The translations under genes and the position numbers were made by a program. 64,000 nucleotides of DNA, taken from positions 62,001 to 126,000 of the IMG/VR virus record IMGVR_UViG_3300038465_000091. One strand, 5' to 3'. The notes beneath the pieces are model-generated. The model was not told where the DNA came from. It ran no database searches and was given only the letters and a program-made list of their open reading frames with translations. The DNA is from a virus. Below, in pieces: positions 1-62,529 of this stretch. The first letter of the stretch is position 1; each line of letters opens with the position of its first letter.

Positions 1-120
1 GTTAGCTGGCACGCTGTTCTTTGCAGTCCCGAACTTCCTCCCCTGCGCTCAACGCCGGACTTGGTTGGGTATTTCACATCAACACTGCCGATGCGAATCT
101 TACACGCTTCCAAGCACAGG
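1..120 (-). ncRNA. rnpB: RNase P RNA, 5' part (cut by the window edge)
   Basis: Read on the minus strand, positions 40 to 25 give GAGGAAGTTCGGGACT, a close match to conserved region I of bacterial type A RNase P RNA (E. coli GAGGAAAGTCCGGGCT). It is followed at once by a segment ending in GTGCCAGCTAAC, which matches the P7/P8 entry of the E. coli RNA (GTGCCAGGTAAC). Just upstream, 90-56 folds as a P3-like hairpin with an internal loop: CGG and GTTG pair with CAAC and CCG. The order P3, conserved region I, P7/P8 is that of RNase P RNA. The rest, including conserved regions IV and V and the 3' strand of P1, lies outside the window, so the 5' end near 120 is only an estimate. It lies downstream of tRNA-Cys in the same direction. 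Confidence 0.8.
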
Positions 121-234
121 ACGTATATCTACGCAGCAGCGGTCGTCCAATTCAACACAAATTTTCAAAGACCTAATAGACGATGCAAAAGCTTTGTTCT
201 GCACTCAATCACCCGATAAACTGGGCGATGATTT

Positions 235-56112: not shown

Positions 56113-56156
56113 AATCGCTCCCGCCGCAGTATTAGACCCTATGGACAATGTAGAAT

Positions 56157-56229
56157 GCGGGGATAGTTTAGCGGTAAAACAGCCGACCCAATCGGAAATC
56201 GGGGGTTCAAATCCAGCCTCTCCGCTCCA
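56157..56229 (+). tRNA. Degenerate tRNA, possibly Trp (CCA)
   Basis: The acceptor GCGGGGA pairs with TCTCCGC, the D stem GTTT with AAAC, the T loop is TTCAAAT and CCA is encoded (56227-56229). The anticodon arm is abnormal: only CCG/CGG (or CCGA/TCGG) pairs, giving a 7-nt loop ACCCAAT with C33 and anticodon CCA, or a 5-nt loop. The T stem also has mismatches. The body is 70 nt, short. It is a weak or decayed tRNA with TAGAAT just upstream. Confidence 0.5.
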
Positions 56230-56275
56230 ATCTGCACGCCAACTTGCCGAGCAACGATTCAAGACCAATCCAGTA

Positions 56276-57013
56276 ATGTGTTTCCAGCGACATCTAATTG
56301 AAGCTTCCGCCGAGCTTAATCCTCGGGAAAAATACCCTAAAGAATTCCTGCTTCACGAAGGTGTGCGGGAGATCACTCGTGCTGAGTGTGCGACATTCAT
56401 TGAGCAGTATGAATACCTCGGCACCCTCGGTCGCGGTAGCGTGTACTACGGGTTGTTCATGCCGAATGGCGAGATGGTTGGGGCCAACTGCTTCTGCACA
56501 AGTGGCGGCGGGATTGGGAACATTTGTGGGCCTGAGTACGCGGGTAAGACCGCTAACCTAGCCCGTGGGTGTTGTGTCCTCCACGCCCCCGTCAACGCGG
56601 GCTCGTTCTTTACTGCTCGTTCAATCAAGATGGCGTATGCGAAATACGGATGGCAAGTGTACTTTGCTTACAGTGACCCCAACGCCAGTGAGAACGGCAA
56701 GCTTTACAAAATCCTGAACTGGTACTATCTTGGCGCGGGCCTCAACCATAGTGGCGGGCATAGTGACTGGTATAAGGACGGCAACAGGATCAAAAGCTAC
56801 GCCGTGTTCCGCGATGGCGGCAAGGCCCTAGTGAAGTACGGCTATGAGCCGGGCACAGGCGGGCAATGGGCGTGGCTGCGAGCTAATGGTTGGGAGCAGA
56901 GAATTGATCCCGACAAAGGGAAATTCTGCTGGTTTGAGGGCAACAAACGCGAAGTACGAGCCGCAAAAGCGGCGTGTCGCTACCCCCTTGATCTACCATT
57001 CCCAGAAAAATAA
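56276..57013 (+). CDS. Mom-like DNA modification acyltransferase (245 aa)
   Basis: The ATG at 56276 was chosen because longer frames read through the tRNA-like element. The protein has the layout of the Mom/GNAT-like family: ITRAECATFIEQYEYLGTLG, YYGLFMPNGEMVGANCF, LARGCCVLHAP, AGSFFTARSIKMAYAKYGWQ and AYSDPNASENGKLYKILNWY. Mu Mom modifies adenine with an acetamido group, and related proteins acylate hypermodified bases in other phages. With the aGPT-Pplase-family gene 1.4 kb downstream, the best guess is modification of a base or a hypermodified pyrimidine in phage DNA. No good ribosome site was visible. Confidence 0.6.
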   Translation: MCFQRHLIEASAELNPREKYPKEFLLHEGVREITRAECATFIEQYEYLGTLGRGSVYYGLFMPNGEMVGANCFCTSGGGIGNICGPEYAGKTANLARGCCVLHAPVNAGSFFTARSIKMAYAKYGWQVYFAYSDPNASENGKLYKILNWYYLGAGLNHSGGHSDWYKDGNRIKSYAVFRDGGKALVKYGYEPGTGGQWAWLRANGWEQRIDPDKGKFCWFEGNKREVRAAKAACRYPLDLPFPEK

Positions 57014-61069: not shown

Positions 61070-61089
61070 GAAGTTAAATATTCCTAGCC

Positions 61090-61114
61090 AAAATCCTCAG
61101 ACTTCTGGTATCAT
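61090..61114 (+). promoter_or_regulatory. Promoter of the tmRNA, AAAATCCTC ... GGTATCAT
   Basis: AAAATCCTC starts at 61090 and GGTATCAT at 61107, spacing as at 57021 and 62736 within one nucleotide. Transcription would start near 61121. Confidence 0.7.
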
Positions 61115-61120
61115 GTAATA

Positions 61121-61397
61121 GATGGTCGTAAGCCCCGCAAGGGGTAAAAGGCACTGGTACTGATTTTCAGACAGGGGTTCGACTCCCCTCAGGTCCACCA
61201 TAAATTTTTGCACCACCTTATGGGCCTGCCCCGGTTTCGATGGAGACGGTATGGGATGGCAGCCAGCGACCCGAGCGCAAGGGTGTACCCTCGTTAAACA
61301 GGCATTCAAAAAAGTAAACGCTGAAGCTCCAAAGGCTTTCGCTGCTCATGCTTAATGAGCCAGACCCCGTGGGTCTGTTCCTCAACACGGCAAGAAC
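61121..61397 (+). ncRNA. ssrA: Permuted (two-piece) tmRNA
   Basis: The gene has its halves in reverse order. First comes the acceptor piece: T arm AGGGG/CCCCT with loop TTCGACT, acceptor strand CAGGTCC (61190-61196), discriminator A and encoded CCA (61198-61200). A 21-nt spacer follows, then the coding piece starting GGGCCTG (61222-61228), which pairs perfectly with CAGGTCC and has the tmRNA G3-U70 alanine signal. Next is CGGTTTCGATGGAGACGG, matching the tmRNA 5' domain, a paired CGAG/CTCG region, then AAAAAAGTAAAC before resume codon GCT (61320). The tag reads A-EAPKAFAAHA, followed by TAA TGA. A terminator ends it. It rescues stalled ribosomes. No SmpB gene is in the window. Confidence 0.85.
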
Positions 61398-61423
61398 GCC
61401 CGCGCAAGCGGGCATTTTTGTTT
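61398..61423 (+). terminator. Rho-independent terminator of the tmRNA
   Basis: GCCCGC-GCAA-GCGGGC, then ATTTTTGTTTC. Confidence 0.9.
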
Positions 61424-61467: not shown

Positions 61468-62529
61468 ATGGCAAACGACAAGGTTAGGGAAGCACTCAAA
61501 GCCGCCGCGAGCTTCAAGGCACGCGGCATCAAGAAAGCCGCTCTGGGCGTAGTTGCGGAGTACGAAGCGAAGAAAGCCAAGGACTACGACGACATCAACG
61601 GCTCCAAAGACAAGTGTGCCGACTGCGGTGTCAAATCCGGCAAGCCCCACAAAGAATCCTGCAATGGTGGACTGCACGATATAAAGTCCAAGAAGGCCGC
61701 TCCCGGCGATCCGATCCAACGTGACCAACCCGCCGCCCAAGCCGACCCCGCCATCCCCGATCCGACTGCTCAACCTGCCGCTCCCGTTGCCCCACCCGTG
61801 GAAGAGGTCGAAGAGGCAGAGGAGACTCCCGAAGCTAAAGCCGCTCGCGTGCGTGAAGCACTTGAGACCGAGTTAGGCGACGACGATCTGGTGACGGCTG
61901 TCCTCGAATTTCTGGAAGCCGAAAAATTCGACTACGACGATTACAGCGTCGATGTCACGGATAACAGCGACGGCACAGCCACGGTCGCTGGCTACATCAT
62001 TGCCCCCAACGACGACATTCCAGAAAGCATCGCTCTGGCACAGGTCCGTAGCGATTTGGAAAGCGAGCCTGAGCTTTTCAATCAGGATTGGCTCCAAGGA
62101 CACATCGACGAGGTGCGCCTCCGTGACCATCTGTACTCAGACACGGAGGAAATGATCCGTGATTCCCCCGACTCTTATGGGTGGGTGCCCGGAGGCGGCG
62201 AAGAACTCGTCCGCTTTAACGCCGAGGGTGAAGAAGAGGATGACGGCGAGTACGATTCGGCTGGTGAGCCCATTGTAGAGGAGACCGAACCCTCCGACGA
62301 CTGGCTTGAAGAGAAGACCAATGAACTCCTCCGCTATCCCGTGCAATACCTGACGGACATGTTAGGCGAAGAGGACGGCATCAAACAGGCGATATCGATT
62401 GCTGGGATCGACATTAACGCAGCGGCAGAAGAAGCGGTTGCAGCCGATGGCTGGCAGCACTTCCTGTCCCGTTATGACGGAAACTCGTACGATCTCGCTT
62501 CTGGCGGGGTTTATTGGCGAGAAAATTAA
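61468..62529 (+). CDS. Acidic multi-domain hypothetical protein (353 aa)
   Basis: The N-terminal helix (MANDKVREALKAAASFKARG) is followed by a two-Cys site KCADCGVKSGKPHKESC, a Pro/Ala linker and a strongly acidic helical region (VEEVEEAEETPEAKAARVRE). The middle is beta-rich with DDYSVDVTDNSDGTATVAGY; the end holds WLEEKTNELLRYPVQYL. No family. The acidity and linkers suggest a structural or DNA-mimic role. Its promoter is among the strongest in the window. Confidence 0.6.
   Translation: MANDKVREALKAAASFKARGIKKAALGVVAEYEAKKAKDYDDINGSKDKCADCGVKSGKPHKESCNGGLHDIKSKKAAPGDPIQRDQPAAQADPAIPDPTAQPAAPVAPPVEEVEEAEETPEAKAARVREALETELGDDDLVTAVLEFLEAEKFDYDDYSVDVTDNSDGTATVAGYIIAPNDDIPESIALAQVRSDLESEPELFNQDWLQGHIDEVRLRDHLYSDTEEMIRDSPDSYGWVPGGGEELVRFNAEGEEEDDGEYDSAGEPIVEETEPSDDWLEEKTNELLRYPVQYLTDMLGEEDGIKQAISIAGIDINAAAEEAVAADGWQHFLSRYDGNSYDLASGGVYWREN

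Follow-up and report, generated by a model that had tools for sequence, protein, structure and literature searches.

The 64,000-nucleotide stretch analysed here and referred to as the window, bases 62001-126000 of the 223,506-base IMG/VR virus record IMGVR_UViG_3300038465_000091, carries a circularly permuted transfer-messenger RNA (tmRNA) gene at 61121-61423 on the plus strand. An earlier note, made from the letters of this DNA alone, had proposed a phage-encoded, two-piece tmRNA, and this identity is now secure, supported by an Rfam covariance model, an independent gene finder and covariation in phage copies. We consider it quite probable that a jumbo phage maintains this ssrA gene and that its two-piece RNA would be charged with alanine, rescue stalled ribosomes with host SmpB and tag their products with AEAPKAFAAHA.

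The permuted tmRNA gene

The covariance search that the earlier note had suggested gave a match to RF04321 (tmRNA_permuted) at 61140-61355 (+), covering the full model (1-213) with 69.7 bits against a cut-off of 47. Expectation (E) values of 2e-14 in the 223.5-kb record and 2.4e-11 with all 4227 Rfam families, together with this score, exclude chance, and the match was the only one to RF04321 across the whole record. ARAGORN independently called a permuted tmRNA at the locus, with the tag AEAPKAFAAHA followed by two stops. None of the lineage cut-offs of RF01849, RF01850 and RF01851 (alpha, beta and cyano) was reached; RF01850 alone matched, partially, with 49.7 of 84 bits, and the permuted tmRNA of the isolated phage Tunturi_5 likewise fell below that cut-off with 46.9 bits. 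BLASTN of the gene against GenBank phages returned matches to the T arm and nothing more.

The anatomy of the locus agrees with the first description. The acceptor piece with T arm and CCA comes first, followed by a 21-nt spacer and then the 5' domain and tag-coding piece, where a resume codon opens the tag frame and a stop closes it. The acceptor strands GGGCCTG and CAGGTCC form seven pairs across the permutation, including G3-U70 (61224/61194). The start first placed at 61121 is preferable to the Rfam start, 19 nt further in, because it takes in GGTCG (61124-61128), a potential pairing partner of CGACC (61267-61271). Read by eye and with no formal count, this outer helix is either kept in relatives or changed on both sides (GGTTG/CAACT in L170 and L171, GCTAG/CTAGC in Tunturi_5). 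A promoter-like site and a terminator are present as claimed, although by themselves they do not prove a functional unit, for which conservation is the better evidence. In relatives L022, L172, L173 and L170, too, a TGGTAYYAT-like stretch immediately precedes the gene. The features are as follows, with the basis of each in brackets.

61085-61114 (+): promoter-like site TAGCCA-18 nt-TATCAT, extended -10 with TG before it (sequence)
61124-61128 (+): GGTCG, 5' strand of the outer helix that opens the acceptor piece, partner 61267-61271 (sequence, relatives)
61133-61144 (+): CCCC-GCAA-GGGG hairpin of the acceptor piece (sequence, fold)
61173-61189 (+): T arm AGGGG-TTCGACT-CCCCT (Rfam match, covariation)
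61190-61200 (+): 3' acceptor strand CAGGTCC (61190-61196), discriminator A and encoded CCA (61198-61200) (sequence, covariation)
61201-61221 (+): 21-nt intervening sequence, presumably cut out (sequence)
61222-61251 (+): 5' acceptor strand GGGCCTG (61222-61228) and D-analogue region of the coding piece (Rfam match, covariation)
61267-61271 (+): CGACC, partner of 61124-61128 (sequence, relatives)
61320-61358 (+): tag frame AEAPKAFAAHA (61320-61352, first codon GCT), then stops TAA TGA to 61358 (ARAGORN, sequence)
61362-61389 (+): H-type pseudoknot after the tag, stem 61362-61366/61372-61376 and second stem 61368-61371/61386-61389 (covariation)
61398-61423 (+): intrinsic terminator, 61398-61413 plus T run (sequence)
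1-158 (-): 5' portion of an RNase P RNA gene extending beyond the window's first base, at 61741 to about 62158 of the record (RF00010)

Related phages and conservation

The best isolated relative of the window's phage is Tunturiibacter phage Tunturi_5, with a tail sheath 44%, a family A DNA polymerase 45% and a portal 51% identical. Tunturi_5 infects an Acidobacteriota soil bacterium (PMC11924767), which makes an Acidobacteriota the probable, though not certain, host of the window's phage. The Tunturi_5 genome (PP885688) contains an unannotated permuted tmRNA at 157899-158195 (-), scoring 86.4 bits inside a gene-free gap (locus L055), which ARAGORN missed and which the Tunturi_5 paper does not mention (PMC11924767). 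Searches of IMG/VR for two sequence patterns, one of 25 bases and one for the tag, and for the portal, the sheath and the upstream gene gave further relatives. A permuted tmRNA scored above the cut-off in nine of ten first-round records, for which the tmRNA itself had been part of the search, and in six of 50 second-round records, many of them fragments. One more record, G013, reached 43.4 bits, just under the cut-off, yet carries the tag VTAPKAMAFAAAA.

The pairing support from homologous phages, whose absence the earlier note would have taken as a refutation, is present. All seven acceptor and five T-stem pairs are formed in ten diverged phage copies (100% of 120 cells), with changes on both sides at eight of the 12 pairs, compared to 4.7 in shuffles, and at four of the seven acceptor pairs; these counts are not independent events, because the aligned rows are related. 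G3-U70 is invariant in all ten. The pseudoknot after the tag shows the same compensatory conservation, 100% paired in six sequences with both-side changes at six of nine pairs. Both alignments consist of hand-cut ungapped stretches of related rows, so the pseudoknot counts are not independent events either, and copies that did not match the layout were omitted: L051 and L171 from the T-arm alignment, and L172, L173, L176, L033 and others from that of the pseudoknot.

The intervening sequence ranges from 4 to about 80 nt in relatives. At the short end, the permuted tmRNA at L174 has an intervening sequence of 4 nt (CTGC) and GTC (Val) as its first tag codon. Tunturi_5 (L055) and G014 (L170) have common intervening-sequence ends, TTCAGCACA...TG(C/T)TGAATTGT, that could pair, a likeness that suggests common descent of the permuted gene.

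Full standard tmRNA genes (RF00023) occur in the related phages G016, G021, G033 and G025, and also, at a greater distance, in G053 and G060; no single record showed the two forms together as complete genes. The standard-form genes of close relatives are located near tRNA genes, unlike the window's gene, which sits between protein genes. On a portal tree, two changes are needed between the gene forms, G016, G021 and G033 group with the permuted G014 at 99/98 support, and holding the four standard-form rows together was rejected (approximately unbiased (AU) test, p 0.006), with the caveat that the tested grouping was picked after the data were seen and that the form of rows L058 and L059 was taken from same-sample contigs. 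Gene replacement between forms is the simpler reading, because the loci of the two forms differ.

Tag peptide, proposed function and alternatives

Permuted genes in the clade encode the tags AEAPKAFAAHA, ATAPKAMAAHA, ANAPKAMAAHA (in two lineages), ATAPKAFAAAA, ANSNVALPIAA and AKPMAFAAAA, as well as VTAPKAMAFAAAA, ATDKPKAMAAHA, ANAPKAMAMAAAA, ATAPKALAMAAAA and VTAPKAMAMAAAA, and two long tags end FAMAAAA and FAMAA. Where ARAGORN gave no frame or an extended one (L051, L171, L172, L176, Tunturi_5 and the standard-form G021), we read the tag from the sequence; in Tunturi_5 this gave an apparent long tag ending RAFAMAA before three stops, with the resume codon uncertain. A PKA core is conserved in ten permuted phage copies, with synonymous codon changes and, in most, differing acceptor stems, and the tags of five permuted genes end AHA. 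Three of the standard-form loci in relatives (L194, L195, L197 and L198) have tags ending YAMA or YAFA. As a bacterial baseline we used 81 ARAGORN tags from three groups not known to include Acidobacteriota: 78 end AA, 77 end L/M/I/V/Y-A-A, none ends AHA and none contains PKA. The tag pattern PKAxAAHA matched five times in a scan of 84,980 species genomes, with no tmRNA among the matches.

These features are consistent with a working trans-translation gene. Its transcript would begin with the acceptor domain; RNase P, either that of the host or the host protein with a phage RNase P RNA, would cut ahead of 61222, and tRNA 3' processing would free the CCA at 61200. The two pieces, held together by the acceptor stem and the adjacent helix, would be charged by host alanyl-tRNA synthetase via G3-U70. 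With host SmpB, the RNA would enter ribosomes stalled on broken mRNA, add alanine plus the tag AEAPKAFAAHA and release the ribosome at UAA/UGA. SmpB was not detected in the window's record, nor in any of 14 relatives, among them the complete Tunturi_5, so host SmpB would be needed and is presumed to be used; rescue with this host partner is likely, and the phage would gain by keeping ribosomes free during infection.

Several points weigh against this proposal. The usual degron end is absent from AEAPKAFAAHA, which closes with AHA in place of the hydrophobic residue-A-A of ClpXP-type tags, and the host is assigned from a relative at 44-51% protein identity. T loops are abnormal in L051, L171 and L176 (TCGTA, TGGCT and ATGGCGA), yet the tags of these copies are conserved. 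The cofolding energy of the two pieces was no stronger than that of shuffled sequence, under a model without pseudoknots or tertiary contacts, and the case for their pairing thus rests on covariation.

The unusual tag end raises the possibility that the phage tmRNA competes with that of the host and that its tag is read poorly by the host protease, or by another protease, so that phage proteins are spared or sorted differently. The AHA, YAMA and YAFA ends and their contrast with the bacterial baseline favour this, and according to reviews both ClpXP and ClpAP require ALAA, an end conserved except in Mycoplasma, where AFA-ended tags go to Lon (PMC3985003; PMC9382460). Other tags in the clade end AAAA, FAMAA or PIAA, however, and the independent events are few, and we regard such redirection as conceivable but on balance doubtful; it would extend rather than exclude ribosome rescue. 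That the AHA end itself makes tagged proteins poor ClpXP substrates, or directs them to another protease, is speculative. An RNA that acts as a decoy, titrating SmpB or alanyl-tRNA synthetase and so blocking host trans-translation, has a precedent in the RNA of mycobacteriophage DS6A, which is limited to the tRNA-like domain (PMC4131195, PMC11915505), and the charging domain is the best-conserved part of the phage genes. A decoy would have no need of the tag frame, stops and post-tag pseudoknot, all of which are conserved, with the frame intact in the window's gene, and this function is unlikely.

Readings in which the gene does nothing fare worse. ssrA is a common integration site (PMC9004378), and a functionless passenger could have been taken from a host by imprecise excision, but covariation and tag conservation run throughout the clade and the genome-wide tag scan found no bacterial tmRNA with this pattern, making a passenger more improbable still. 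tRNA genes often give false tmRNA matches (PMC4131195) and the record is rich in tRNAs; at this locus no tRNA was called, the match is full-length with tag, resume region and terminator, and the covariation across the permutation refutes an artefact built on a tRNA, which we can hardly credit. Ribosome rescue with host SmpB is the reading we prefer over the decoy, the passenger and the tRNA artefact.

Two other ideas were rejected. Capture from a known bacterial tmRNA is disfavoured because no lineage model fits and the PKAxAAHA scan returned no tmRNA, although a bacterial source with another tag is conceivable. Recoded stop codons as a reason for carrying a tmRNA find no backing, as TAG ends about 20% of open reading frames and readthrough adds little coding length. 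In this phage and relatives, ARAGORN did report tRNA-like genes whose anticodon is CUA or has four bases (L006, 3385-3543; L040, 7297-7583; L041, 6417-6588); TAG is a normal stop in these phages despite the CUA-anticodon genes.

RNase P RNA and relation to known systems

RNase P is the type of enzyme expected to make the 5' end of the coding piece at 61222, and the window's record carries an RNase P RNA gene of its own (RF00010, 139.4 bits against a cut-off of 100). A longer insert close to the 5' end of this RNA led Infernal to misplace the 5' strand of the structure, whose true location emerged from alignment with G008. RF00010 also matched in 11 of 40 other records searched, at 165-255 bits (loci including L299-L308, L310 and L311), and the copies inspected adjoin tRNA genes, whereas Tunturi_5 gave no match. 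BLASTN with two of these RNAs against GenBank phages gave short or doubtful matches only, and no report of a phage RNase P RNA was found in the open-licence papers searched. A search of the record's frames for an RnpA motif found none, which is weak evidence. If active, the phage RNase P RNA would give the virus its own copy of a core ribozyme, and this copy would mature the tmRNA gene described here. As a tentative and rather doubtful wider picture, the clade may supply much of its own RNA kit, comprising about 37 tRNAs in the window's record, an RNase P RNA to cut them and a tmRNA, permuted or standard and swapped in phage evolution, with a phage-specific tag end tuned away from ClpXP; the phage would then control both ribosome rescue and the fate of the rescued proteins.

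Mycobacteriophages of the Bxz1 group, Streptomyces phages and Bacillus phage G are also large phages with tmRNA genes, of the standard, one-piece form. Theirs are annotated as tmRNA, and BLASTN with the window's gene matches only their T arm. Gene order, G3-U70, encoded CCA and a tag frame followed by a pseudoknot are common to the window's gene and the RF04321 type (alpha, beta and cyano lineages; Caulobacter type), from which it differs in its scores below all three lineage cut-offs and in its AHA end. Mycoplasma ssrA tags, with their AFA end and degradation by Lon, likewise depart from LAA, and the relative G021 ends YAFA, although Mycoplasma is another organism group with another gene form.

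The earlier note knew of no well-studied phage example, but a two-piece tmRNA was described in the marine methylophage Melnitz in 2022, along with 53 predicted two-piece genes in mostly aquatic phage genomes (PMC9004378). Huge phages with tmRNA and SmpB had been reported in 2020 (PMC7162821), and this kind of gene is thus already known. The window's phage shares a phage-borne permuted ssrA with Melnitz and the other aquatic phages (PMC9004378), but belongs to another group of jumbo phages, one with a soil Acidobacteriota phage as relative, has the tag family xxAPKAxAAHA and shows no match to a glutamine riboswitch beside the gene. As far as we have checked, the clade is new, and so are its conserved non-LAA tag, the presence of both gene forms within it and the occurrence of tmRNA alongside RNase P RNA. 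Two-piece tmRNA, hitherto a feature mostly of aquatic phages, is hereby extended to a clade of jumbo phages with Tunturi_5 as a relative, and the presence of both forms makes this clade a place to study the origin or replacement of the permuted gene. Tunturi_5 can be grown and carries an unannotated copy, so function is testable, including whether a virus rewrites the protein outcome of ribosome rescue through a conserved non-LAA tag.

The record also encodes a B12-dependent ribonucleotide reductase and, at 56141-57013 (+) of the window, a Mom-like DNA modification protein (phrog_1384). Three large proteins in the same record have ice-binding-like (PF11999) domains (L004, 13038-16238 (-); L008, 9126-12608 (+); L009, 14688-17201 (-)) and are perhaps adhesins or fibres.
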